Positions 2 to 23,258 of a stretch of DNA of 24,476 nt are shown piece by piece. The position numbers and the translations under genes were made by a program. The stretch lies in IMG/VR virus record IMGVR_UViG_3300013120_000339, positions 1-24,476 of that record. One strand, 5' to 3'. This DNA comes from a virus. The notes under the pieces are model-generated. The model made no database searches, had not been told where the DNA came from, and was given only the letters and a program-made list of their open reading frames with translations. Positions within the stretch are counted from its first letter, which is position 1; every line of letters starts with the position of its first letter.

Positions 2-541
2 GCGCTCTTTGTTGAAAGCGATGGGGTGTATCAGGGGCTAGACGATGTCGACCCGTGGGACATCAGCCGTGATGCCCGGTCGTACCTCGGCCCGCACCCT
101 GTCGTCGCCCACCCGCCGTGCAAGCGGTGGGGCAACTTCTGGATGGGAAGGCCGGGGGTCGACAAGGGCCGGTTCCATCTGGGCGATGATGGTGGGTGCT
201 TCGCTGCGGCTCTGGCATCCGTTCGCGCCTTTGGCGGCGTCCTTGAGCACCCGAAGGGGTCGAGAGCGTGGGGGATGCATGGCCTGACAGCGCCATCCGG
301 CGGCGGGTGGTGCGCCTCTGACTTCAAGGGTGGCTGGTCGTGCCTAGTAGACCAAGGCCACTTTGGCCACCCGTGCCCGAAATCAACGTGGCTCTACGCC
401 GTTCGGGTCGACCTGCCTTCGCTCGACTGGTCGCCGTCGGTGGCGACCGGCAGGGTGGAGAGGCAGTCCCGCCGGGACCGCCTGCGCACGCCACCGGCAT
501 TCCGAGATCTGCTCCTCAGCATGGCGAGGTCTGTCCGATGA
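2..541 (+). CDS. Methyltransferase-like phage protein, 5' end cut by window edge
   Basis: The frame is open back to base 2, and the residues ahead of the first usable start (GTG at 26) continue the same kind of sequence (ALFVESDGV leading into YQGLDDVDPWD). The gene therefore almost certainly begins outside the window. The visible part is 179 residues. Marks are VVAHPPCKRWG, then GGVLEHPKGS, then WSCLVDQGHFGHP followed by CPKSTWLYAV. The HPPC motif recalls motif IV of DNA methyltransferases, where a PPC/PPW-type loop sits at the active site, and small phage proteins of this pattern are known to me only as hypothetical or methylase-like. I see no complete SAM-binding motif, so catalytic activity is doubtful. 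It lies just upstream of a helicase and a real C5-methyltransferase, and its stop overlaps the helicase start as ATGA. Confidence 0.75.
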   Translation, partial: ALFVESDGVYQGLDDVDPWDISRDARSYLGPHPVVAHPPCKRWGNFWMGRPGVDKGRFHLGDDGGCFAAALASVRAFGGVLEHPKGSRAWGMHGLTAPSGGGWCASDFKGGWSCLVDQGHFGHPCPKSTWLYAVRVDLPSLDWSPSVATGRVERQSRRDRLRTPPAFRDLLLSMARSVR

Positions 542-1941
542 TGCACCGCGAGACCGTCATCCAGACCGAACGGGCGATGCTGGCTGACCTGCTCCTCGTC
601 CACCCGTCGGACGTCCCAGCCGTGGCCGAGATGCTCCGCTCCGACCAACTGACCGACCAGCGTCACCGGGCCATCTTCGAAGCCGCCGTAGGCCTCGCGG
701 CCGTCGGCCGGGACGTGGATATCCTCGCGGTCCAGTACGCCCTCGAGGCATCCGGTCAGCTCGGCGCGGTGGGTCACGACTACGTCCTGAACCTCTCCGC
801 CTCCGGCGCGATGTCGGCGAAGCGCGCGGCCCGCACCCTGGCGGCGGCCGCCCGCATCCGAGCGTTGCAGGGCGAGCTCTACACTCTCACCGCTGACCTC
901 GATGCGGTGGACCCTCAGCAGGCCGACGAAGCGATCGGGCGCGTCGTAAGCCGGGTCATGGACTACGCGGCCAACGCCGAGGACGGCGGGCGCGTCGGGA
1001 TGGGCCAGGCGGTGCGGCTCTTCCTCGCCGACGCGACGGACAACTGGCATCGGCGGGCCGAGAATCGGCCCGTTCGCTCCGGTCACTCCTGCACCTTCCG
1101 CGCGGTCAATGACCCGATGGTGGGGGGATTTCGGCCGGGGGAGGCCTACGCCATCGGCGCTCGCCCCAAGACGGGAAAGACGGCCTTCGCGCTGAGTATC
1201 GCGTGCGGTATGGCGACGCGGGCCCGTGGCCACGTCCTCTATCTCAGCTGGGAGGATCAACCGCTATGGCTCGGCGGGCGCTTCGCGTCGGCGATGCTCA
1301 AGTCGCACGGCATGAGCCTGCATTCGGGGGATTTCGACGCGGACACGCTCGCCGAAGCGTTGGAACTCCGCGACCAGGCCGCACGCAAGGGCGGAGGGCT
1401 GGACGACCTGCTCACCATCGTCCACCGACCCGGCGCAGGCGTCGAACTGGTGGATTCCGAGGTTGTGCGCTACCAGCGCAGCCGCGCCGCCCGTGACTTC
1501 CCGTTGGTCGGCGTCGTCGTCGACCACATCGGCAGGCTTATCCACGACGCGGCGCGGCACGGCGGAGATGCGGAGCTTCGGCGGGTGGTGAAGGCGTGCG
1601 AGACCGTGGCGAAGCGGCGACACGTCCCGATCATCATGACTTCCCAGCTGCGCCGACTGCAGGGGGGCACAGGGAAGGCGCGCGCACCGACCGTCGAGGA
1701 CTTCCGCGGGTCGGACGCCCTGCTCGAGTGCTGTTCCGCCCTGATGCTCCTACACCGGCCCCGTGCGGTTGACCCGGACTACCAACGGGGCGAGGAGGCC
1801 CACATGGTAGTCCCAGCCAACAGGCTCGGGAAGGTGGGGCGCTGGCCGCTGCACTTCAATGAGCGCACCGGCGTCTACACCGACGCCGAGGAGCCGTGGG
1901 GCGACCTGCCCGGCACGGGCTCGCCATGGGGGAGACGGTGA
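538..1941 (+). CDS. DnaB-like replicative helicase
   Basis: A 467-residue RecA-fold helicase that would unwind the phage replication fork. The N-terminal DnaB domain covers about residues 10 to 75 (ERAMLADLLL, then LTDQRHRAIFEA). The ATPase core has Walker A ARPKTGKT at 208-215, an acidic residue in SWED at about 239, Walker B GVVVDH with Asp329, and the motif-3 sensor IIMTSQLRR with Gln370. Next comes EDFRGSDALLE, which matches the DnaB LRESG..IEQ region, and the protein ends in NRLGKVG, like the family's KNRNG motif. Length is typical of DnaB. I chose ATG 538 because it overlaps the previous stop (ATGA) and directly precedes the DnaB domain. The open frame reaches back to 340, but that stretch only shadows the gene upstream. 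No primase or loader gene is visible nearby. Confidence 0.93.
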   Translation: MMHRETVIQTERAMLADLLLVHPSDVPAVAEMLRSDQLTDQRHRAIFEAAVGLAAVGRDVDILAVQYALEASGQLGAVGHDYVLNLSASGAMSAKRAARTLAAAARIRALQGELYTLTADLDAVDPQQADEAIGRVVSRVMDYAANAEDGGRVGMGQAVRLFLADATDNWHRRAENRPVRSGHSCTFRAVNDPMVGGFRPGEAYAIGARPKTGKTAFALSIACGMATRARGHVLYLSWEDQPLWLGGRFASAMLKSHGMSLHSGDFDADTLAEALELRDQAARKGGGLDDLLTIVHRPGAGVELVDSEVVRYQRSRAARDFPLVGVVVDHIGRLIHDAARHGGDAELRRVVKACETVAKRRHVPIIMTSQLRRLQGGTGKARAPTVEDFRGSDALLECCSALMLLHRPRAVDPDYQRGEEAHMVVPANRLGKVGRWPLHFNERTGVYTDAEEPWGDLPGTGSPWGRR

Positions 1942-3152
1942 GATACCTCAGCGTGTGCAGCGGCATCGAGGCCGCCTCCGTGGCGTGGTACCCTCTCGGG
2001 TGGTTCCCGGCTGCGTTCGCGGAGGTCGACGCCTTCTCATCTGCAGTGCTCGCGCACCGCTTCCCAAGCATTCCGAATCTCGGCGACATGACAGCAATCC
2101 CGGAGCGTGCCAATGAACTCGGACCAGTTGACCTTCTTGTCGGCGGCACCCCCTGTCAAAGTTTCAGCGTGGCAGGACCCCGGGGCGGGCTCGAAGACCC
2201 GCGCGGACGCCTTGCTTTCGCTTTCGCGGATGTTGCGCGCGCGCTTCGCCCACGGTGGGTCGTGTGGGAGAACGTGCCCGGAGTGCTATCCAGCGGGGGA
2301 GGCCGAGACTTTGGCGCGTTCCTCTACAGCTTGGTCGACGTCGGGTATCGCTGCGCGTGGCGAGTGCTGGACGCTCAAGGCTTCGGAGTGCCCCAGCGAC
2401 GACGACGGGTGTTCGTTGTCGGACATCTTGGAGGCGGGCGCCGTGCCGCCGAGGTTCTATCTCTCGGCGAAAGCGGCCCGAGGGATTTTGAGGCGCGCCG
2501 AGGCGCGAAACAAAGCCCTCCCGCCGGCCCTCTTGACGGCGTTGGAGGAGGCTGCGTCGGACCCCTCCTCGCGCCCACAAGAAACAGCGGGTGGCGAATA
2601 GACGTCGCCGCCGTGGGAGGGCGAGTCGCACACACCCTCCGAGGTGAAGGGTTCGACGCCAGCGAGGACGGGACCGGCCGAGGTACTCCGATTGTGACAT
2701 TCGGGGGAGGTCGGACCTCGGGGCACGCTGTTGCATGGAACAACCGGGGCAGGGACGGCGGCGCTCAGTTGGAAGGGCCGAGCCCCGTGGCCAGCCTGCG
2801 AGCAGCCTCCGGCGGTTCGTCGCGGAGCCTTGTCCAGGCATGGGCTGAGAACTCGCGCGGGGAACTCAGACTAGAGGGCGGCGAGGGCCGGCGAACCGGA
2901 GCTATCAGCGGGCCGGGTGGCAAGGCTGGGCAGAGCACACCGACGGTGTGCTCTGCGGGCGCTGTCCGACGGCTCACGCCGCGTGAATGCGAGCGCCTGC
3001 AGGGCTTCCCCGACGACTGGACCCGCATCCCGTACCGCGGCAAGGGCGCGGCCGGCTGCCCGGACGGGCCGCGGTACAAGGCCATCGGGAACTCGATGGC
3101 CGTTCCTGTGATGCGATGGCTCGGGTCGCAGATTGCAGAGGCGGACAGATGA
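1938..3152 (+). CDS. C5-cytosine DNA methyltransferase
   Basis: Transfers a methyl group from SAM to carbon 5 of cytosine, most likely to protect phage DNA from host restriction. It has 404 residues. Motif I is YLSVCSGIEAAS at 3-14. Motif IV is GGTPCQSFSVAG with catalytic Cys73. Motif VI is WENVPG with ENV at 111-113. Motif VIII is QRRRRVFVVG from 153. Motif IX is LTPRECERLQGFP and motif X AIGNSMAVPV near the end. The stretch between motifs VIII and IX is Gly-rich and poorly conserved-looking, and would hold the target recognition region. I chose GTG 1938 because GTGA overlaps the helicase stop, GGGGGAG lies just upstream, and family members often start MRYLSVCSGIEA. ATG 1926 is the alternative. 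A second frame is nested at 2113-2601. The target site cannot be read from sequence. Confidence 0.93.
   Translation: MRYLSVCSGIEAASVAWYPLGWFPAAFAEVDAFSSAVLAHRFPSIPNLGDMTAIPERANELGPVDLLVGGTPCQSFSVAGPRGGLEDPRGRLAFAFADVARALRPRWVVWENVPGVLSSGGGRDFGAFLYSLVDVGYRCAWRVLDAQGFGVPQRRRRVFVVGHLGGGRRAAEVLSLGESGPRDFEARRGAKQSPPAGPLDGVGGGCVGPLLAPTRNSGWRIDVAAVGGRVAHTLRGEGFDASEDGTGRGTPIVTFGGGRTSGHAVAWNNRGRDGGAQLEGPSPVASLRAASGGSSRSLVQAWAENSRGELRLEGGEGRRTGAISGPGGKAGQSTPTVCSAGAVRRLTPRECERLQGFPDDWTRIPYRGKGAAGCPDGPRYKAIGNSMAVPVMRWLGSQIAEADR
2113..2601 (+). CDS. Possible overlapping gene nested inside the methyltransferase gene
   Basis: A 162-residue frame lying wholly inside the methyltransferase gene, shifted +1 relative to it. 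It starts at ATG 2113 with GGAG (2102-2105) seven bases upstream. The protein has distinctive composition: RGECWTLKASECP, then CSLSDILEAG, then PPRFYLSAKAARGILRRAE, ending in an Ala/Glu-rich helix. From memory, similar proteins (ECWTL.ISE.P, SLSDILE, YLS.KA.GILRRA) are annotated in many proteobacterial phages next to or overlapping C5-methyltransferase genes. I could not check this. The region it covers includes the weakly constrained linker after motif VIII. Long shadow frames are common in such GC-rich DNA, and a conserved methyltransferase would make its shadow look conserved too, so the call is tentative. Confidence 0.38.
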   Translation: MNSDQLTFLSAAPPVKVSAWQDPGAGSKTRADALLSLSRMLRARFAHGGSCGRTCPECYPAGEAETLARSSTAWSTSGIAARGECWTLKASECPSDDDGCSLSDILEAGAVPPRFYLSAKAARGILRRAEARNKALPPALLTALEEAASDPSSRPQETAGGE

Positions 3153-10000: not shown

Positions 10001-10238
10001 CCAGAGAGACGGTCATCGGCCCCTGCTCTGCCACGCCGCCCTTGGGGTCGAGTCTCCCGGTGACCGAGCTCACCGCCACCAGCCCCGGATTGTCGTCGTA
10101 GGAGAGCGCGCCGCCCGTGCCGGGCACGCTCTCCAGCGTCGGCGCGACGGTGCCGGAGTAGTAGCGCACCTTGAGGCCCGCCACAGTGAGCCGGAAGACG
10201 CTGCGCCGGTTGATGTCTGCGTTCTCGCCGAGGCTCAC
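7011..10238 (-). CDS. Large tail-tip/host-contact structural protein (1075 aa)
   Basis: The largest gene, starting at GTG 10238 in a GTGA overlap. It lies at the distal end of the tail cluster where siphophages encode the tail hub, tip or central fibre. No known domain is readable. The sequence is beta-rich with many Asp/Gly/Pro turns. The N-terminal 130 residues include a helical stretch (VLSRITQKAAAFWAQLL), the middle holds many Trp-rich segments (DNWHEWTYPHACTMVHAQ), and the C-terminal third has PTADISRSIADGDWL and short beta repeats. The length and position fit a tail-tip or receptor-contact protein. There is no obvious peptidase or lysozyme motif. Structural role is confident, exact role is not. 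Confidence 0.7.
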   Translation of the reverse strand: MSLGENADINRRSVFRLTVAGLKVRYYSGTVAPTLESVPGTGGALSYDDNPGLVAVSSVTGRLDPKGGVAEQGPMTVSLATTDDPRSVNEAGRVLSRITQKAAAFWAQLLTKLDQATGAGTVEIDRSHASVTVPTLIHVGLETMWATAKLGTGAPADPYRFTVTRAVAGTQPQVHRVDGAGGKVPLVIIDEVVFWRTRRASVHMAQIRSDGTLSEWVEIKRGFIERSPRETGSPKRLEVEVIDLLTLTDTAMVNNNVSTGLRDNWHEWTYPHACTMVHAQRWAWQGDATSVAHSANAGAAGVYNVAPGQLAPHQGTMDTGLPGQHPRRGQLWNDHGGAFEVVTGYGIGTGPAGDDQFIIAAPGPTRLGAAGDLINSAPAVEVIPVDVAPGPVGTQTLARWPDAAVDAAQASWVPRSFAGAGGMWANMTIDAEGDDGPALLSAYNVDNYRRALRILLWSDWQAVPEAYGFPHANFKAWRTPSSPAAASGPDDPPDLFRHLWYGLDFADPGDEARPFRHHGVIGARGPWRGPRRAEWVREVALFTEADTGRVPAGPAEQRIPIRGIASAFYQTGEPSILVSDQVVVPPGGVHKMTVTYWDGEEERTHDVSVTAATEVFDGGVSIGWRLTIQDPYRTPSFGNWPGQEPAAIRSAIRFDAERPAVVLLQLLLSGGGGLINDSVYDVLPIGANLVGDASTSPDVDVASFERFPDTPGMDRWTLTYPDGETVREVLEDMLMAMGAAIVSRIDPDTGDSMLTLVSVGPENPMETLSTISTADPTADISRSIADGDWLVDPVPENGTDDEIVNKWVFNLSHPAEDNDEPLPVIQYDQASITAHGDGEEVELNLLGIVADPAAPGGAEAAVQDILSRLMVQFGDERRTWRGRIATGDAIFGHLGSVYLVASRFLRAYGAVGLSAIGEDGTAVSFNAGRVMEWTIDYWGEGAEVLMYHYGVNGAGWAASAEVTAVVDPTTVRIDFSDFTPATHPVTGEPFRDIHGFFATQQVRGFNPADRDAAVALTVMSTDGVSHITFTGAHGLVAGDIIIPGSYDQVVNRLYAHMADAAATLGASADAAKDMT

Positions 10239-10873
10239 TGGTCAATCTCCGGCTCGAAGAACTCCCACACGGTCACCTGGTGCAGCCGCACGTTTTGGGT
10301 GGTCAGCCTGACCTCCACATCGACGCCCTGCGCCGTCCCGACGTTGAGCAGTCGCGGCACGGTCGGGAAGGCTGCCGGGGCGTCGTCGATGGCGGCCCCG
10401 GTATTCGCCAGCAGGATCCGATAGGCGTCGCCCTGCGTGCCGCCGGACTCCACGATGTATGAATCAGCGGCGAGGTCGCCCCGGTCCTGGTCCCACCTGC
10501 AGCCCGCATCCTGCACCGCGCCACCGAAGGCGAGCCGCAAGTCCGCGTCTGCGTAGGTCACGGCGGCCGCTGTCCCGCGCGCCGCCTGGTAGCTGAATTC
10601 CACGAAGACGTACGACGCCTTCGGGTGCGTCCGCCATGTGACCTTCGCCGCGCGCGTGATGCCGGTGGGGTCGAGCTGCTCCGGGTCGTTATTCGACCCG
10701 CTCACGTCCCACTCAATCTCGGTGTGCGGTGCGCGCCGGAAGCGCCAGCCCACCAGGTAGTTCACCGCCTGAGCGAAGGACTGCATGGTGGGCCCGTCGA
10801 CCGGGCGCTGAAAGTGCGTCGCCTTGACGTCGGGCACCGTGGGCCAGCTGGACTGTGGGCGGACTGTCGCCAT
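10235..10873 (-). CDS. Tail-region structural protein (212 aa)
   Basis: 212 residues from ATG 10873, three bases after the previous gene's stop. The sequence looks like an all-beta domain with alternating polar and hydrophobic strands (ASYVFVEFSYQAAR, VDVEVRLTTQNVRLHQVTVWEFF). It carries one Cys and no motif. It is coupled by GTGA to the large tail protein, with which it may assemble. It could be a small fibre or baseplate-like wedge. Not recognised. Confidence 0.65.
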   Translation of the reverse strand: MATVRPQSSWPTVPDVKATHFQRPVDGPTMQSFAQAVNYLVGWRFRRAPHTEIEWDVSGSNNDPEQLDPTGITRAAKVTWRTHPKASYVFVEFSYQAARGTAAAVTYADADLRLAFGGAVQDAGCRWDQDRGDLAADSYIVESGGTQGDAYRILLANTGAAIDDAPAAFPTVPRLLNVGTAQGVDVEVRLTTQNVRLHQVTVWEFFEPEIDQ

Positions 10874-11905: not shown

Positions 11906-13138
11906 CTACTGCCCTCGCTCGTCGTCGGTGAAGATCAGGCTCGTGGGGCGTCGTCGACGCAGCTCGCCCGGCCACCGGGCGTCGTAGCGGTCACCCGTCC
12001 GCGGGTGGATACGGAGTCGAAGGCGTCCGCGATAGCCTCCGCCCTCCACGGTGTACAACAGCCCGTAGTCGCCCAGGTTGGGCAGCGGAGCCGCGCGCCT
12101 GCTGTCCCCCCAGTCTTGGTACAGCGTGACGCGCCGCCCGTGCGTGACCTGGTGGAGGAACTCGTCCATGTAGTGACGATGCTGGTCGCGCGGACCGGCG
12201 GGCCCGTCGAGGTGAAAGTCCAGCTGCCACCCGCCATAGCTGCCGACCACGTTGGACGACCACGCCCCGCTGGTCAGCCGGTCCGCCGCGCCCTCTTCCT
12301 CGGTCACGCGGAACTGTCGCACCATCGGGCGCGATGGGAAAAGCCCCGTGGGCGGCCGGTTGTTGGCGGTCAGGCTGTCCTGGCCGTTGAGCGTCACGAC
12401 CGTCTCGCTCCCGTCGAAGCCGAGGGCGTCGCGGAATGTGGTGGACAGCCACGTCGGAAGGGCCAGCGCGATCGCGTTGGGCCAGGTCGACCAGACGAAG
12501 CCGGCGTCACTGATGCCCCACTGGATCGACCGGCCCGCCGGGTCGTTGATGTCGTTGTCCAGCTTCTGGATGTTGTCGAGCGGGTGCGCGTCGTCTGCGT
12601 CGGCGATGACACCGCGGTCGCGGAAGAGGACCGGGACGTCTTGGTAGCGGAAGGCGTCAGGGAGGAGCAGGAACGGGATCCCGACGCCCGGGAAGACGCT
12701 CAGGCCCAGGTTGTCAAAGTTGCCGCGGGTCCATTCGTTGGGCGTCGTGTAACCCGGCGCACCCGCCGCGATGACGCCGGTGCCGGTGGCAGGGATGCCG
12801 AGGAACTCCGCGCCCGCGTTGCCGCCGATGTCGAAGGTCTCGACCGTGGACTGGAAGTTGATGCGGTCGTCGCTGGTGAAGGTCGCCGTGAACGTGCCCG
12901 CGCCGGTCCACTGCGAGGCGCACAGCGCCGGGAGCGTGCGGGTCGACGTCGAGCCCCGCCCGTTGAGCAGGTCCAGCAGGTCGTCGTAGATGCCCTCTGT
13001 GGTGTAGGGCGTGGACGTCGGCAGCGCCGTTGCTACGCCGCCCCGGTTGAAGAGGTCGGTGGGCGAGGACCCGCGCCACGGCCGACCGTCGAACTCGCCG
13101 AGCAGCGCGAATAGCGGGTGGGGGTTCATTCGCGGCAT
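11906..13138 (-). CDS. Minor tail protein after the tape measure (410 aa)
   Basis: ATG 13138 overlaps the tape-measure stop (ATGA) and has AGGAG nine bases upstream. A second ATG is three codons in. The slot immediately downstream of the tape measure usually holds the distal tail or tail-hub protein. The protein is mixed beta, with Asn/Asp-rich loops (IQKLDNDINDPAGRS) and a basic C-terminus (GELRRRRPTSLIF). No motif was recognised, so distal tail protein is only a positional guess. Confidence 0.65.
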   Translation of the reverse strand: MPRMNPHPLFALLGEFDGRPWRGSSPTDLFNRGGVATALPTSTPYTTEGIYDDLLDLLNGRGSTSTRTLPALCASQWTGAGTFTATFTSDDRINFQSTVETFDIGGNAGAEFLGIPATGTGVIAAGAPGYTTPNEWTRGNFDNLGLSVFPGVGIPFLLLPDAFRYQDVPVLFRDRGVIADADDAHPLDNIQKLDNDINDPAGRSIQWGISDAGFVWSTWPNAIALALPTWLSTTFRDALGFDGSETVVTLNGQDSLTANNRPPTGLFPSRPMVRQFRVTEEEGAADRLTSGAWSSNVVGSYGGWQLDFHLDGPAGPRDQHRHYMDEFLHQVTHGRRVTLYQDWGDSRRAAPLPNLGDYGLLYTVEGGGYRGRLRLRIHPRTGDRYDARWPGELRRRRPTSLIFTDDERGQ

Positions 13139-14745
13139 CAGTTGCGTCTCCTGAAGCTCCGCGCGTCGAAGCGGGCGCGGCCGCGCCGCCGGCTGCCCTC
13201 GTCCAGCAGTCGGGCGATCCCGTCCTGGATGTCCGTGCGGGTGTGGATGGGCTGGCCGTTAAAATTCGCGTTGATGATGATCGCGCCCGCCTCGGTGTCG
13301 CGGTCGCGGTCGGGGGGGAGATCGTCCGATGCCGGAGACCGCGGCGATCCACCGCCCCCTCCACCGCCGCTGCCGCCGCCCCCCCCTGTCGCAGCGGCGA
13401 CGCCGGCGGCAGCTAGCGCCACGCCTTGGAAGGCAGCGGCGGCGGCGAGGTGCTGCGACGCCAGCAGCGGCTCGGCGATCGCCTTGGCCAGACTGAACAG
13501 CGCCTCGAGCTGGGCGCGTTGGAAGATCGACGACGCCGCCGCGTTGAGGACCTGCGCTGCCGACTCCCCCGCGATGATGCCGGCCAGCGCTTGCGCCGCT
13601 GTCGCCTTGCCCTGGGCCACTGCGAAGTCCTCGAGGCCTTGCACCATGGCTGCGTTGGCGTCGTCCAGTCGCTGAGCCTCCCGTACAGCTGAGTCGATGC
13701 CCTGGGCGAATTCGCTGAACGCCGGTGACATCTGCTCGCCCAGATTCTGAAATCCGAGTGCCAGATCGTCGACCGCCTGGCTGATGCCGGGGAGGAACTC
13801 GTCGCCCTCGAAGATGAACGACAGCGACTCCGCGACCGTCTTGGCCCGGTCCAGTTCTTGGACGAACGCGAGGAGGGACTGCGTGCTCTTCCTGATGCTT
13901 CCGTCAACGTCCTCGGTCGACTCAAACAACGCAGCGAGTGACGCCGCAAACTGCAGTGCCTCGCCCTCGGCGATCTTCAGTTGGCCAGTCCAAAGCGCCT
14001 GGCTGATCCGGGCGTTGCGGATTGTCGAGTCGAGCTCGCCAGACTCCGCCCGTAGTGCGGCCATCTCCTTTCCGAGAGCCTGAAGCGTGGGCAGGTTGGC
14101 CCCGAGTGCCGCGGTGGCGTTGTTGGCGTTCTGGTTGGCCTTGGCGAGGCCATCCGCCGTCGCCTGCAGTCGGCGCTCAATCGCCTCTATCTCGCCTCGG
14201 ATATCCACCTGTCTGGTCAAGGCGGCGTTGCGCGCATCCTGGGCGGCGGCGATGTTGGCCTGAGCCTCAGCGAACCGCCGCGCGTTCTCCGGGTCGATGA
14301 GGAACGACGCCAGCCCCGCTTTGGTGGCTAGAGCCTGGAAGGCGCTCCCTGTCTCATGCACTCGCGCCGCAAGTTCCGCCTGGGCCTCCGCCTGGGCCTT
14401 GGCTGCCTCCTCTGCAGCCTTGGCGTCGGTGATCCAGTCGCGCATTGCGGTGGCCGCGCTGACGAAGCCCTGCACCATGTTGAAGAGCGCGACGCCGGAG
14501 AGCAGACCGATTGCGGTGTTGATCTGACCGAGCCGGCCTTGGAGGGCGTCGAAGCCCTTCAAGTTGTCGTCGATCGGCCGGAGGCTGTCCTGCATTGCGC
14601 CGGAGAGGTTGCCGAACGCTGACCCTGCGTTGTTGCCCGCCCTAGCTGCGCCCTCTGCCGCCTTGTCGGCTTTGCCCAAGGCATCGGACACCTTGTCTGC
14701 GCCCGTCTCGGTGAACCTGTAGTTCACCTCTCGCTCAAGCGCCAT
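13138..14745 (-). CDS. Tail tape measure protein
   Basis: 535 residues from ATG 14745, preceded by GGGAGGG at good spacing. The open frame continues 19 codons further but without a better start. The sequence is long Ala/Gln/Glu-rich helix (AEAQANIAAAQDARNAALT, EIEAIERRLQATADGLAKA) with hydrophobic segments near 85-110 (TAIGLLSGVALFNMVQGFVS). Near the C-terminus lies a Gly-rich run (from about residue 455), then an Asn/Asp-rich tail. The family sets tail length, and at roughly 1.5 angstrom per helical residue this predicts a tail of about 80 nm, short for a siphovirus. It follows the frameshifted chaperone gene, the standard arrangement. Confidence 0.85.
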   Translation of the reverse strand: MALEREVNYRFTETGADKVSDALGKADKAAEGAARAGNNAGSAFGNLSGAMQDSLRPIDDNLKGFDALQGRLGQINTAIGLLSGVALFNMVQGFVSAATAMRDWITDAKAAEEAAKAQAEAQAELAARVHETGSAFQALATKAGLASFLIDPENARRFAEAQANIAAAQDARNAALTRQVDIRGEIEAIERRLQATADGLAKANQNANNATAALGANLPTLQALGKEMAALRAESGELDSTIRNARISQALWTGQLKIAEGEALQFAASLAALFESTEDVDGSIRKSTQSLLAFVQELDRAKTVAESLSFIFEGDEFLPGISQAVDDLALGFQNLGEQMSPAFSEFAQGIDSAVREAQRLDDANAAMVQGLEDFAVAQGKATAAQALAGIIAGESAAQVLNAAASSIFQRAQLEALFSLAKAIAEPLLASQHLAAAAAFQGVALAAAGVAAATGGGGGSGGGGGGGSPRSPASDDLPPDRDRDTEAGAIIINANFNGQPIHTRTDIQDGIARLLDEGSRRRGRARFDARSFRRRN

Positions 14746-15166
14746 GGGGACCCTCCCGTCGCCGGGCCTCGGCGAGATGCTGGTGGAGCGCCTGCGACTC
14801 ACGGATAGCGGTCTCGACTAGATCCACCAGGACAACCCCAGGCCGGTCCACCAGGTCGAACACGCGCGAGATCTCACCGCCCGTGTGGCGCGCCAATCGT
14901 AGCACGCGCGCGAGCCACGGTTGGAATAGCTCGGCCAGTGGGCATGTGTAGAAGCGCTCTGCGGCCGCACTGGCGTGATACGAGACCACCGTGCCGCCGT
15001 CGATGTAGGCGCGCCCGTCGTCGTCCTCGTCGGCGAGGGAGTGGGCATGGAGCGGCCCCCCGCAGTTGCCCCGGCGCGCCCGCTCGGCTGGGTGCTTGTC
15101 GCAGTCCTCACACGACCACTTCCGCGCCCGCTTGTTGGTGGACCAGACCGCGACCGAGATCAGGCT
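14735..15166 (-). CDS. Tail assembly chaperone, -1 frameshift extension (GT-like)
   Basis: This frame is reached from the upstream chaperone by a -1 slip at 15166-15172. It reads on from SLISVAVWSTNK for 143 residues to the TGA at 14735. Between the junction and residue 59 of the extension there is no ATG, GTG or TTG. The only start-like codon at the boundary is CTG 15163, overlapping the stop. The full frameshift product would be 315 residues. The extension carries CEDC, then a third Cys in RRGNCGG (Cys191, 194 and 207 of the fusion), and Cys247, a possible zinc site. The lambda model has G and GT bind each other and the tape measure. The end overlaps the tape-measure start by 11 bases. Confidence 0.8.
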   Translation of the reverse strand, partial: SLISVAVWSTNKRARKWSCEDCDKHPAERARRGNCGGPLHAHSLADEDDDGRAYIDGGTVVSYHASAAAERFYTCPLAELFQPWLARVLRLARHTGGEISRVFDLVDRPGVVLVDLVETAIRESQALHQHLAEARRREGPHGA

Positions 15167-15681
15167 TTTCCCTGGGGCGGGGTCTCCCCGACGCGCCGGG
15201 CATGCTGGCCGAGCTCCGCCATGAATGCGGTACGTGCCGACACGGGCCGGATAGTGTCAAAGGCCTGCTCGAGGGCGGGCCCCTCGATCACCTGCCCTCT
15301 GGCGTCCTTCCACGGCGGGTCCATCCGCACGACGCTGGCCAGCGCGAGCGCGGTGGCGTAGCGCGACGTCCAGGCCTCATAAGCGGCCACCGCGGCCCGG
15401 CCGGCGGCGTCGAGTTCCAAATCAGCAGATTGGTGCAACTTGTGCCCCAGCACAGGGATCCGGCCGGCCCGCTCCCGGGCTGCCTCCGTCTCGGCGTACG
15501 TCAGGGCACGAAGCACCACATGGTCAGCGCCGGCGGGCACCTCAAGGCGCGACTGGTCCCCGGTGAGCAGGTAGTGGCGGATACTGTCCACGTCGTTGGT
15601 GCTCTGGACAAGCGGGTCAGACGCGAGAAGCACGCGGTGTTCTTCGTCGGCTGAGAGGCTGGGCGAGTAGGCGAATGGCAT
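15160..15681 (-). CDS. Tail assembly chaperone, unshifted form (G-like)
   Basis: 173 residues from ATG 15681. The protein is acidic and helical, with MPFAYSPSLSADEEH at the start and ETPPQGKA at the end. It lies between the tail tube and tape measure genes, where siphophages keep their G/GT pair. The position, the size and the slippery sequence just before the stop identify it better than the residues do. It would coat the tape measure during tail assembly and be absent from the virion. A strong hairpin lies upstream, in the gap after the tube gene. Confidence 0.85.
   Translation of the reverse strand: MPFAYSPSLSADEEHRVLLASDPLVQSTNDVDSIRHYLLTGDQSRLEVPAGADHVVLRALTYAETEAARERAGRIPVLGHKLHQSADLELDAAGRAAVAAYEAWTSRYATALALASVVRMDPPWKDARGQVIEGPALEQAFDTIRPVSARTAFMAELGQHARRVGETPPQGKA
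15166..15172 (-). promoter_or_regulatory. -1 programmed frameshift slippery site G GGA AAA
   Basis: In the chaperone frame the bases read CAG GGA AAA GCC TGA, so G GGA AAA has exactly the X XXY YYZ phase, and the stop follows one codon later. Lambda uses GGGAAAG at the same place. Slipping one base back reads AGC CTG ATC and joins the extension frame. No decisive downstream pseudoknot was identified by eye. Confidence 0.85.
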
Positions 15682-15759: not shown

Positions 15760-17106
15760 TCAGTGGGTCAGGCCGATCTGCAGCGGGGTGTTGCTGGCCA
15801 CGTAGCCGCCCGGGAAGACGTCGCCGGCCCATCGGCCCGCGCCGTAGGTGAGCACCTGGCGCACCAGATCCGTGCTCAGGTCGCGCACGTCGGGGTCGGA
15901 CTTGAGCACGCCGCCGGGCAGCGACAGCACAACGCCCTGGCCCGCGCCGGGTGAGCCGAAGCCCACCATGACCATGCGCCGCACCTGGTTGACGAAGTCG
16001 TCGGTGAAGGCGGTGTTCGGCACGCTCAGGATGAGCGTGAGTTCGGTCACCTGGTTGGCCACCTCCCAGTCGCTCATGCCGAGGATGGACTGCGAAGAGC
16101 CCTTCGGGACTAGCGTGTTGGTGATGGTGCACGCGAATTCGTCCACGTCCACCTCGGCAGCCTGGGCGAGCAGGTAGGGCGCGGTCGGCGCGGGCGAGTC
16201 GTTGGCCTCGGGCACCGCCGCGGACATCACCTGGGCCGCCGCGAGCATGTGCGCGGGCTTCCCGCGGAGCCGGACCGGGTCGCCAATCGACGCGGAGGCG
16301 TTGTCGTACTGAACCAGCGCCGACTTGAAGGTCCACTCCAGAATGAGCCGGCGGCCGGGGGTGGTCGTCCAGCTGATGGACGACCACCGGCAGCCGTAGC
16401 AGTTGGCCCGCCACCCGTCGCCGTCGAGTTGGAACGCCACGGAATTGCCCACCGTGGCGTTGCTCTGGCTGAACGTCCGCACCGTCCTGACCACGTCCGC
16501 CGAGACGTTGGTCAGAGCCCGCGAGAACGCCGGCGAAAAGAAGACCGTGTCGCTGGCTGCGACCGTGATGTCGGTGATCTTGGCGTACTCGCGCTTCCCG
16601 TCGATGTCGACCGCGATCAGGTCGCCGATGGCGAATATCCCTGTCCCCGTGCCGACGAAGCTGTTGGCGGTGTCGGGTGGCGGGCCGGGCGCGCTCACCG
16701 GGTCGGCGTAGTCCGCGGCCAAAAGCGGGCTGGAGCCGTCCTGCATTCCGCTGGCGAGGAGCATGGCGAGCACGCTCCCGTCATATCCGCCGCCCAGGCT
16801 GGCGAAGTCGCCGCCGGTCCTGACCTGGTAGCTGAACGTCACCTGGGCCTCCGACCGCTTCACGGGGCTCCCGCTGGAGTCACAGACGGTGTTGGGCTCC
16901 GGGGGGAGCTCGTAGTATCCGCTCCGGGCCTCGTCGCGGACGTCCATCACGGGCTCGCCCGGGTCGGTGAGCGTGGGCTGCTCAGCGGCGAAGAGGACCG
17001 CCGCGCCGAAGGCCGTTGCCGCCGGGAGGTTGGTGGTCGGATCCAGCGACCCGAAGCTGCCGAACTCGTCGGCAACCTTGATGCTGATTGCGTGCTTGGT
17101 CGCCAT
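15760..17106 (-). CDS. Major tail tube protein
   Basis: 448 residues from ATG 17106. The protein is beta-rich. A core segment, WRANCYGCRWSSISWTTTPG, followed by strands, resembles the conserved region of phage tail tube proteins (GCR.TSL.....PG). The gene sits immediately before the chaperone pair, and no separate sheath gene exists, so the tail is probably non-contractile. It is longer than the usual 150-300 residues, and an extra N-terminal or middle domain (about 60-150, Pro/Asp/Gly-rich) may project from the tube. A Myoviridae sheath protein was considered, but no small tube gene follows. Confidence 0.75.
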   Translation of the reverse strand: MATKHAISIKVADEFGSFGSLDPTTNLPAATAFGAAVLFAAEQPTLTDPGEPVMDVRDEARSGYYELPPEPNTVCDSSGSPVKRSEAQVTFSYQVRTGGDFASLGGGYDGSVLAMLLASGMQDGSSPLLAADYADPVSAPGPPPDTANSFVGTGTGIFAIGDLIAVDIDGKREYAKITDITVAASDTVFFSPAFSRALTNVSADVVRTVRTFSQSNATVGNSVAFQLDGDGWRANCYGCRWSSISWTTTPGRRLILEWTFKSALVQYDNASASIGDPVRLRGKPAHMLAAAQVMSAAVPEANDSPAPTAPYLLAQAAEVDVDEFACTITNTLVPKGSSQSILGMSDWEVANQVTELTLILSVPNTAFTDDFVNQVRRMVMVGFGSPGAGQGVVLSLPGGVLKSDPDVRDLSTDLVRQVLTYGAGRWAGDVFPGGYVASNTPLQIGLTH

Positions 17107-20608: not shown

Positions 20609-21928
20609 TCAGCGGGGGAAGACCGCCTTGTCCTGGTTGTAGATCATCACGGCCGCCACCTGGTAGGGCACCTGGTGCGCGGCCATGTAGGCGCGGATCG
20701 CCCCATCCTGTTTCTGGCCGGGGGTCTCGGGCTGGGGTACATCGCCGTGGCCGTCGGCCTCGGTCTTGACGACCGCCGAACCCTTGACGGTCACGACCAG
20801 CGCGTCAAAGGGCTTGAAGGCCGCGTCGGGGGCCTTCGTCTGGGCGTCGTAGGCGGCCTCGAAGTGGGCGCGCTGGTCGAGGCGGATGTCGCCGGCCTCC
20901 AGCAACGCCTCGATGGCGGCGGTCTTCTTGGCCGCGCCGGCCTGGGCCTTGAGCCCCGCATTCTCGGCCTTGAGCCGAGTGTGCTCGGCACTGAGCGCCT
21001 GGAACGCGGCCTCAGCGGCACCCTCGCCGCTGTCGCCGTCGGCACCCTCGTCTGCCCCTGCCTCGCGGAGCTCCTCGTTTTCGGCGGTCAGCTGGGCCAC
21101 CTTCGCGCGGAGCTCGGCGAGCTCCTCCTGCATGGCCTGGATCTCTTCCTCGGACACGGTGACCTCCTGAGCCTCTGCGTCAATGTTGTGGCGGTTTTCC
21201 GCGCGCTGGTCAAGCGCGCGGGTGAAGTCAAGGGTGGGGCGGCGGCTGACGCGGTCGGCGAGACCGGCTGCGACAGCCTCCTCGCCGATGAGCAGACCGC
21301 CCCCGTCGGTGGCGGTCAGCAAGTCGGCGACGGGGACGCCTCGCCGGGCGCTGATGTCCTCGAGGAAGGTGGCCGCCATCCGGTCAGCGAAGCCCTGAGC
21401 GTTCTCGCCGTTCAGCAGCTTGTTCGGGGTCTGCGACGAGACCACCGTCTGGACACCGGCGGCGTCCTCGACCACCTCCACCACGACGCCGAGCGACCCC
21501 ATGACGGACGTTGGGGTCAGCGTGACTGAGTCGGCCGAGCTCGCCAGCCACACTCCGGCGGAACAGCACATGCCGGCGACGAACACCTCCACCGGCTTTG
21601 TCGCCTCATCGATGGCGGCGGCGACGAGGTCAAGCCCCGCGATAGCCCCCCCCGGCGTGTCCACCGACAGCCGGATGGACTCCACGCATGGGTCAGCGTC
21701 CGCGCTGGCGATGCTCGCGGCCAGCGTCTCATAGTTCGCGCCGCCGAAGAGCGCCGAGAAGAGGGACGGGCGGGCGAATAGCGGACCGACGACGTGGACG
21801 ACGCCCACCGCGCCGTCCCGTTCGAAGCCAACAGCGGGGAGGATCGCGGCGGATTCCTCGCCGGCCTCGGCCTTCGCCAAGATCTGACGGAGCGCCGCCG
21901 GGTGGATTGCCCAGTGGGAGTCAATCAT
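20609..21928 (-). CDS. S49-family prohead protease fused to a scaffold domain
   Basis: 439 residues from ATG 21928, overlapping the portal stop by eight bases with GGAG upstream. The N-terminal ClpP/SppA-like domain has LSVDTPGGAIAG at 88-99, the nucleophile Ser123 in CCSAG and a probable catalytic Lys170 in TPNKLLNG, the Ser-Lys dyad spacing (47) near that of lambda gpC. The C-terminal half is Glu/Ala-rich coiled coil (EEEIQAMQEELAELRAK, LTAENEELREAG), a scaffold domain. The fused layout resembles lambda C/Nu3 and Mu I/Z. It would build the prohead with the portal and then cleave. Confidence 0.87.
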   Translation of the reverse strand: MIDSHWAIHPAALRQILAKAEAGEESAAILPAVGFERDGAVGVVHVVGPLFARPSLFSALFGGANYETLAASIASADADPCVESIRLSVDTPGGAIAGLDLVAAAIDEATKPVEVFVAGMCCSAGVWLASSADSVTLTPTSVMGSLGVVVEVVEDAAGVQTVVSSQTPNKLLNGENAQGFADRMAATFLEDISARRGVPVADLLTATDGGGLLIGEEAVAAGLADRVSRRPTLDFTRALDQRAENRHNIDAEAQEVTVSEEEIQAMQEELAELRAKVAQLTAENEELREAGADEGADGDSGEGAAEAAFQALSAEHTRLKAENAGLKAQAGAAKKTAAIEALLEAGDIRLDQRAHFEAAYDAQTKAPDAAFKPFDALVVTVKGSAVVKTEADGHGDVPQPETPGQKQDGAIRAYMAAHQVPYQVAAVMIYNQDKAVFPR

Positions 21929-23258
21929 CGGGCACCTGCTCCGCTGGGAAGTTGGCCGCGTCACGCAGCGCGGCTCGCGCCGCTGGATCCGTCGTCGGAC
22001 TGAACCACCCAGCCGCAGTCAGCGGGGCGAGGCTCGGGATGAGCTGCTTGAGGTAGTCGACGGACAGCCCTGTGTGAGTGAGCCGCGGCAGGACTGACGG
22101 GTCATGGGGCCCGTAGTTCGCCTCGACCCACCGGCCGATGACGCCGCCACCGCGCCGATGGGGCCCGCTCATCGCCGCCGCGATGCGGTCAAGGGCGTTG
22201 ACGGTGTTGCGCCGGAAGAAATTCTCATGCACCTCGCCGGCGTTCTTCGCCCCGGCGTCGCTGATGCCGACCGCGAGGAACTGCACCAGGGATGCCCGTA
22301 GGATCTCGATGTCGTAGTACCTGGCCACATCGAGCACCGGCCCGGCGTCCAGTCCGCCGCCATACTGCTCGAACTTCACGAACTCAGACTCGACCAGCCA
22401 ACTCCCGGCCCGCGCAAGGTAGTTGCCCAGCACTGTCTCGGCGGCGTCGACCTGCGCTTGCAGCGTCCCGTCCACCACGCCCGCGGCCCGTGCCTCCTCG
22501 TGTAGGACTGTGATCTTCGGCGTGGCGAATGCCCAGCGGTCGACCGCGACGGATATGGCGTCGAGGGTGGCCTGCTTTGCGTGCCACGGGAAATACGCCG
22601 CCCTGCCCAGACCTCGGCCCTCAAAGTTGTTCCCGGTGCCCTCGCGGACCAGCAGTAGCAAGCCCTCGGCGGGGATCTCTCGGATGCGGGAGACGCCGCG
22701 CGCTCGGTCCTCTTGGGCCGGGTCCTGCGTCACGCCCACCAGCCGGCCGCGGTTCATGACCCAGGCGCGGTGGACGCGCGGGTCCCGGTCTTCGATGTCG
22801 ACCAGGTCGAAGCCGTGGCCGCGCCGAAACCGGAAGATGGGCTCGGCGTATCGGAACCCGATCCACTCGTGCAGCACCATCTGGCCGAGCATCTCTTCCC
22901 AGCTGCGCCGCATCCGGCCAGCGCCGCGCCCGCCCATCCCCATCATCTCGTTGGCGGCCTTCGCCAGGAACTCAGCGAAAGGGTCGTCGGACGTCCCAGA
23001 CTCCCACCTCCAGTCAGGGGAGAGCAGGGTGGATGAGACGGCCTCCCACGACGCCGCGCACGCGGTGTCGGTGCGAAGCATCTCCATGGCCTTCTCGGCC
23101 CAGTCCTTGCCCTGCAGGTTCGGGTTCGGGTCCTCGCCCCGGATGCGCCCGCCCTGAATCTTGGTGCCGGACCAGCCGAACGGCGCGCGGCCAGGCTCAG
23201 GAAGCGCGGCAGGGGAGCGGCGGAACAGAGACGCGAGGCGGTTGAGGAACACGGCCAT
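21921..23258 (-). CDS. Portal protein, DUF935/Mu gp29-like
   Basis: 445 residues from ATG 23258. Marks: AEKAMEMLRTDTACAASWEAV, SPDWRWE, MVLHEWIGFRYAEPIF, RDPRVHRAWV, then the helical wing with FLAVGISDAGAKNAGEVHE and NTVNALDRIAAAM. This matches the DUF935 portal family, whose members form the dodecameric ring at the head vertex through which DNA is packaged. The usual preceding terminase gene is absent; small genes and a hairpin lie upstream instead. No strong ribosome site precedes the start. Confidence 0.88.
   Translation of the reverse strand: MAVFLNRLASLFRRSPAALPEPGRAPFGWSGTKIQGGRIRGEDPNPNLQGKDWAEKAMEMLRTDTACAASWEAVSSTLLSPDWRWESGTSDDPFAEFLAKAANEMMGMGGRGAGRMRRSWEEMLGQMVLHEWIGFRYAEPIFRFRRGHGFDLVDIEDRDPRVHRAWVMNRGRLVGVTQDPAQEDRARGVSRIREIPAEGLLLLVREGTGNNFEGRGLGRAAYFPWHAKQATLDAISVAVDRWAFATPKITVLHEEARAAGVVDGTLQAQVDAAETVLGNYLARAGSWLVESEFVKFEQYGGGLDAGPVLDVARYYDIEILRASLVQFLAVGISDAGAKNAGEVHENFFRRNTVNALDRIAAAMSGPHRRGGGVIGRWVEANYGPHDPSVLPRLTHTGLSVDYLKQLIPSLAPLTAAGWFSPTTDPAARAALRDAANFPAEQVPDD

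Follow-up and report, generated by a model that had tools for sequence, protein, structure and literature searches.

In bacteriophage lambda, as described in PMC5009743, the tail assembly chaperone gpG sits on the tape measure, a −1 ribosomal slip yields the longer gpGT, and the T part recruits the tail-tube protein. The same source describes a 3' stem-loop of about 11 bp behind the slippery heptamer of E. coli dnaX. For the chaperones of the Microbacterium phage Bush, a −1 slip within GGGAAAA has been annotated (PMC11749239). Both G/GT frameshifting and GGGAAAA as a slip site (PMC11749239) are thus known already.

Here we analyze a stretch of 24,476 nucleotides of viral DNA (IMG/VR record IMGVR_UViG_3300013120_000339), referred to throughout as the window. 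Its sequence and those of its relatives indicate that a locus on the minus strand very probably encodes a lambda-type G/GT tail assembly chaperone pair made by −1 frameshifting. The putative chaperone identity rests on arrangement, by analogy with lambda: a small gene with a −1 extension lies ahead of a probable tape measure gene and behind the gene for a probable tail protein. As with lambda gpG/gpGT, a short gene precedes the (probable) tape measure, the predicted −1 slip lies near its 3' end, and its product would be a longer fusion. The preliminary description of this DNA had set the heptamer beside lambda's GGGAAAG; the phase was right, but the detail needed correction, since the window and its family have GGGAAAA. 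This heptamer is the same as that of phage Bush, a likeness by description, and the account of Bush, as far as it bears on these genes, mentions no stimulator (PMC11749239). A further difference from lambda is a stop codon that directly follows the heptamer in 67 of the 70 family members described below, compared with an average of 26 nt in the phages used to train PRFect (PMC10885494). To judge from the literature searched and from the family libraries, two things appear to be new: the family itself and the stop codon directly after the heptamer in nearly all of its members.

The slip site and its predicted products

The features of the locus, all on the minus strand, are as follows.

15760..17106, minus strand: 448-aa protein upstream of G, probable major tail (tube) protein (conserved position)
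15160..15681, minus strand: putative G-like tail assembly chaperone, zero-frame product of 173 aa (open reading frame; relatives' profile)
15184..15189, minus strand: Shine-Dalgarno (SD)-like GGGGAG, 11 nt upstream of the heptamer, a possible, speculative 5' stimulator (sequence)
15166..15172, minus strand: slippery heptamer G GGA AAA in X XXY YYZ phase (sequence; family conservation)
14735..15166, minus strand: T-like extension read in the −1 frame: 143 residues and a stop codon (open reading frame; relatives' profile)
14735..15681, minus strand: predicted GT fusion, 315 aa (frame reading across the slip)
15062..15118, minus strand: codons of W-S-C-E-D-C...P...C, with the first three Cys of the conserved cluster
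14942..14944, minus strand: codon of C75, last of the four invariant Cys, in the C-P motif
13138..14745, minus strand: 535-aa protein downstream, probable tape measure (ATG 14745; a relative's match)

The zero frame ends CAG GGA AAA GCC TGA, in which the heptamer occupies 15172-15166 in the correct phase. Bounded by stops at 15259-15257 and 14737-14735, the −1 frame stays open from 15256 to 14738; after the slip the extension begins SLISVAVW and runs for 143 residues, and reading across the slip gives the 315-aa fusion. From the junction through residue 59 of the extension there is no ATG, GTG or TTG, the earliest being GTG 14989 at residue 60; CTG and ATC are residues 2 and 3. A start at GTG 14989 would drop C19, C22 and C35 of the cysteine region. 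In all of this, the reading of the frames given in the preliminary description was borne out.

In-phase GGGAAAN occurs in 2 of the 15 window genes scanned, namely the G gene, where it lies 13 nt from the end, and the DnaB gene, where it is internal. When codons of the window were drawn at random, 0.6% of trials placed a heptamer of the A/T type among the final 14 codons. In its −1 frame the extension has a G+C content at the three codon positions of 0.74/0.51/0.83, compared with 0.74/0.51/0.82 for the G gene.

In the scheme that we propose, most ribosomes would end at TGA and produce G (173 aa), while a minority would re-pair one base back on G GGA AAA, translate a further 143 codons and so yield GT (315 aa). 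By analogy with lambda, G would coat the tape measure, the Cys-rich T domain (probably a Cys4 metal site) would recruit the tail-tube protein, and both G and GT would leave before the virion is finished. That slippage occurs, and its rate, we infer, as we do the chaperone function and the binding of metal.

Relatives found through the recoding signal

The window's own proteins led to no confirmed relatives. As single-protein queries, G, T, the major capsid protein, the tube protein, the portal and the protease gave no confirmed relative in IMG/VR; the capsid and one tail protein gave none in GTDB genomes, and tblastn of G, T and the tube protein against phage records gave no match. The capsid was too poorly conserved to serve as an alignment query. 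A DNA pattern run against IMG/VR, consisting of GGGAAA, then 33-63 nt, then the codons of W.C..C, Pro and Cys, yielded at least 119 stretches and at least 80 loci besides the window. Among the 81 matches listed (80 loci plus the window), 71 had the exact 111-nt spacing into the −1 frame, and 70 of these form one family. The other 11 were dropped as unrelated, including one (L097) that had the 111-nt spacing but a frame of 55 residues. The relatives in IMG/VR thus number at least 69; they come from 63 sample numbers and range from 36 to 63% GC. Six bases of the heptamer (GGGAAA) are conserved among them by construction of the pattern, and relatives without GGGAAA are invisible to this search.

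Representatives with less than 85% identity were drawn from 64 full-length T sequences. Against a profile of 33 relatives built without the window, the window extension scored E = 4.8e-18 and 60.9 bits, compared with 20.0 bits for the best of 1000 shuffles that kept the five searched residues. The G protein, which played no part in the selection, matched a profile of 31 relatives, likewise built without the window, with E = 1.9e-11 and 44.4 bits; the best of 1000 shuffles reached 5.4 bits.

All 70 members listed have GGGAAAA, the seventh base of which was not demanded by the search, and in all 70 the G gene, heptamer and extension keep one frame relation with the 111-nt spacing, GGGAAA having been demanded. 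In the 67 members mentioned above the zero-frame stop follows the heptamer directly, while the window instead has GCC TGA; the stop is TAG in 69 of 70. In the 25 members above 55% GC, lysine elsewhere in G and T is encoded by AAA 21 times and by AAG 153 times, whereas the heptamer lysine is AAA in 25 of 25; the last A of the heptamer also opens the next −1 codon, and T may share in this constraint. The cysteine cluster that the preliminary description had pointed out in the extension is conserved as well: C19, C22, C35 and C75 are invariant in 34 sequences (three of them demanded by the pattern, C75 not), and the C-P motif at the fourth Cys is found in 63 of the 64 full-length T. To judge from these sequences, the cluster is likely a metal site, probably of the Cys4 type, and may bind zinc.

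Together, these results support the earlier proposal that a −1 frameshift makes the second tail chaperone, through the frames, the lack of start codons, the coding character of the extension and the at least 69 relatives.

Position in the probable tail module

Structural genes on both sides of G/T are conserved among the relatives. In 65 of 69 relatives the gene that directly precedes G encodes a homolog of the 448-aa protein (tblastn, E <= 1e-3; best identity about 37%); the window protein itself matches no PHROG or Pfam family. Downstream, the window's 535-aa protein also gave no family match, while in one relative (L103) the gene at the same position matched the tape-measure family phrog_9483 weakly (E = 0.0017). 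The placement of the site between tail tube and tape measure in the preliminary description is likely but shown in part only: the upstream neighbor has no family, and the downstream one has the weak match in L103. The start of the 535-aa gene, ATG 14745, overlaps the last codons of T and is preceded by the SD sequence GGGAGGG at 14757-14751; the listed start at GTG 14802 is probably wrong.

With the same tblastn threshold (E <= 1e-3), the 157-aa protein of the window was found in 58 of the 69 loci and the portal in 7 (up to 40% identity). Of the tail proteins, the one encoded at 11906-13138 had a match in 36 loci and the large one in 17; the 535-aa downstream protein had a match in a single locus. 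None of the 69 matched the protease, the 140-aa protein or the product of 10235-10873; the loci of the relatives are short, and genes distant from G/T are under-counted in these figures.

Elsewhere in the window, the gene at 20609-21964 (minus strand) encodes a head protease of the S49 type whose C-terminal part is coiled-coil and scaffold-like; the equivalent region of one relative (L113) encodes a protease of another type and size. A DnaB-like helicase gene (340-1941, plus strand) adjoins a DNA methyltransferase gene (1896-3152, plus strand), whereas the structural genes are on the other strand. Among the scanned proteins of the 24.5-kb record, none was recognized as a terminase. The protein encoded at 26-541 (plus strand) belongs to phrog_12600 (E = 6.7e-48) and has relatives in tailed phages of Pseudomonas and Caulobacter as well as in small-genome records such as Tortoise microvirus 37, Microviridae sp. 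and Rhodobacter phage Ebor, and its gene is thus common to very different phage types. The 22 loci reached through this protein were rejected as other phages, the window capsid and T being found in 0 of the 22 records.

Comparison with described chaperone families

Searches of family libraries gave no match for either part of the pair. A PHROGs scan of 31 G and 34 T sequences returned nothing below 0.01; Pfam had no match for T (window and six relatives) or G (window), and NCBIfam had none for the one relative scanned. PDB sequences, phage records and plasmid records likewise gave no match for G or T, the T of a relative having been compared with phages. The known tail assembly chaperone families, including DUF1799, Phage_TAC_18 and phrog_313, gave no sequence-profile match for G or T. 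The family is thereby set apart from lambda's proteins by the chaperone family libraries rather than by direct comparison. Nothing came of single-sequence hhalign in which G, T, the tube protein and the tape measure were each compared with four to five loci of other phages, and no homology of G or T to any known chaperone family was detected. Structure models of G and T made without relatives were poor (mean pLDDT 42.0 and 45.2).

A −1 slip site at the same place was found in phage-like plasmid loci of Rhizobium, Azospirillum and Promineifilum, which were reached through the capsid protein, and in the Mu-like siphophage RcapMu, fetched by accession; DMS3, fetched for the same comparison, has no such −1 slip site. 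In three of these four loci (all except Promineifilum) the products match the tail families DUF1799 and Phage_TAC_18 and the corresponding PHROGs; the Azospirillum extension matches Phage_TAC_18. The slip-site loci (L004 13214-13785, L005 7687-8486, L006 11908-12716 and L030 12905-13632) lie before the tape measure position, and their slip sites are a run of A after CCC in one and GGGAAAC in three. In the Azospirillum and Promineifilum loci the annotation lists each gene as a hypothetical protein of its own; the Rhizobium record is unannotated there. RcapMu gp49/gp50 and the prophage-like Rhizobium locus resemble the window in having a −1 slip site, there GGGAAAC, between a tail protein and the tape measure, the two neighbors being probable ones in the window; their T belongs to DUF1799/phrog_680, and profile comparison of T (Rhizobium) and G (RcapMu) showed no relation to the family described here.

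A hairpin after the slip site

Among 33 representatives, the folding z-score of 49-nt segments directly 3' of the heptamer averaged −2.76, with 22 of 33 below −2; at the 23 other positions, which lay between −353 and +337, the means were −0.77 to +0.54 (31-33 sequences each). Measured against synonymous recoding that kept the protein, the mean was −1.83 at the site and −0.11 to −0.50 elsewhere in T. The main stem in the relatives begins 6-7 nt after the heptamer. Over all 34 sequences, the covariation score was 0.257 against 0.166 when shuffled (reached by 0 of 500), and 65.5% of cells were paired, against 36-54% for slid structures; the structure was derived from the same relatives, so that these values lean to structure, though less than those of the register subsets. 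Two such subsets (14 and 11 of 33) had 85-86% of cells paired, and compensatory changes had altered both partners in 8 of 13 and 7 of 11 pairs; these results lean to structure because the subsets were picked by predicted fold. RNAalifold gave no consensus structure for all 34 sequences, probably because the pairing register shifts between lineages, and there was no Rfam match to the hairpin in 5 loci.

The window is without the family hairpin (z of +0.99 and +1.09). It has a possible 10-bp stem 11 nt downstream of the heptamer, which is not significant and whose role is speculative, and its SD-like GGGGAG may be paired within a local hairpin. An AT-rich clade (L052, L068, L082, L088 and L111) has the same heptamer with a weak or no folding signal (z of −1.7 to +0.9). 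Most relatives resemble dnaX in having a stem-loop 3' of the heptamer, which is absent in the window; unlike them, dnaX is another gene with the heptamer A AAA AAG, and its 5' SD stimulator compares with a speculative one in the window.

A hairpin stimulator appears unusual for G/GT-type sites. In most relatives the hairpin, together with the UAG directly after the heptamer, probably raises or tunes the slip. That the hairpin acts instead in mRNA processing or in transcription after G is unlikely, although its first bases come immediately behind the stop codon of G and its whole length falls within T. No U-run follows its 3' arm, and it is therefore not an intrinsic terminator, whereas the spacing of 6-7 nt between heptamer and stem suits a stimulator. 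The usual spacing of 3' stimulators from a slip site is 5-9 nt.

Other origins of the T frame

A second explanation, which we consider highly improbable, is that T is a separate gene started from a non-AUG codon (CTG 15163, or an ATA or ATC near the slip) or from GTG 14989. It is favored by the CTG and ATC at residues 2 and 3 of the window extension and by 19 of the 70 members, in which one ATG, GTG or TTG lies ahead of the Trp codon. The start at CTG 15163 had been named in the preliminary description as the outcome contrary to frameshifting; this CTG is not conserved, the codon at the slip being ATA in 67 of 70 members. GTG 14989 has no SD sequence, and a start there would lose C19, C22 and C35, which belong to the best conserved stretch. 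Between the upstream −1-frame stop and the Trp codon, 51 of 70 members have no ATG, GTG or TTG. The same stop is within 2-3 codons of the slip in 30 of 70, and 22 of these 30 are without ATG, GTG or TTG ahead of the Trp. A separate start is improbable because of this stop just before the slip and because most members have no start codon. Moreover, it would account for neither the AAA lysine codon nor the hairpin.

An assembly or sequencing error in GGGAAAA, the true gene being a single 315-aa open reading frame, has next to no probability. The site is homopolymer-like and the record is known from a single assembly, but at least 69 further contigs, spread over 63 IMG sample numbers, share the frame break with GGGAAAA, and TAG directly follows in 67 of 70. 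Since the relatives share the frame relation, a one-base assembly error or an unrelated downstream open reading frame is excluded. A decayed or chance open reading frame in GC-rich DNA can be dismissed with equal assurance: a 143-codon open −1 frame is by itself weak evidence, since one arises in 12% of random sequences of that composition (69% GC) and chance open reading frames are many in the window, but the match of the extension to the T profile, far above that of any shuffle, and a codon-position composition equal to that of the G gene refute it.

Implications for tail assembly in uncultured siphophages

With −1 frameshifting as the preferred source of GT, a further proposal, which we offer as tentative and rather doubtful, is that the family represents an undescribed G/GT class in an uncultured siphophage lineage. 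Its slip would be boosted by the hairpin and would compete with termination at UAG, unlike the low-level, unaided slip of lambda, and the GC-rich window and the AT-rich clade would have lost or replaced the hairpin. Mechanistically, with UAG standing in the A site, tRNA-Lys could re-pair from AAA to AAA. If this were true, GT would be made at a high ratio to G, or at one that varied with the activity of release factor 1. The relatives form a natural series for such questions, with one slip site that occurs with and without a covarying hairpin and with an adjoining stop codon.

Frameshifted G/GT chaperones control phage tail assembly, and sequence divergence leaves whole lineages of them unannotated. 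A pattern made of the signal plus a few codons led to at least 69 relatives in IMG/VR, whereas the window proteins had found no relatives in tens of thousands of phage records. Patterns that combine a recoding signal with codons are thus a practical route to annotating tail modules in viral dark matter.
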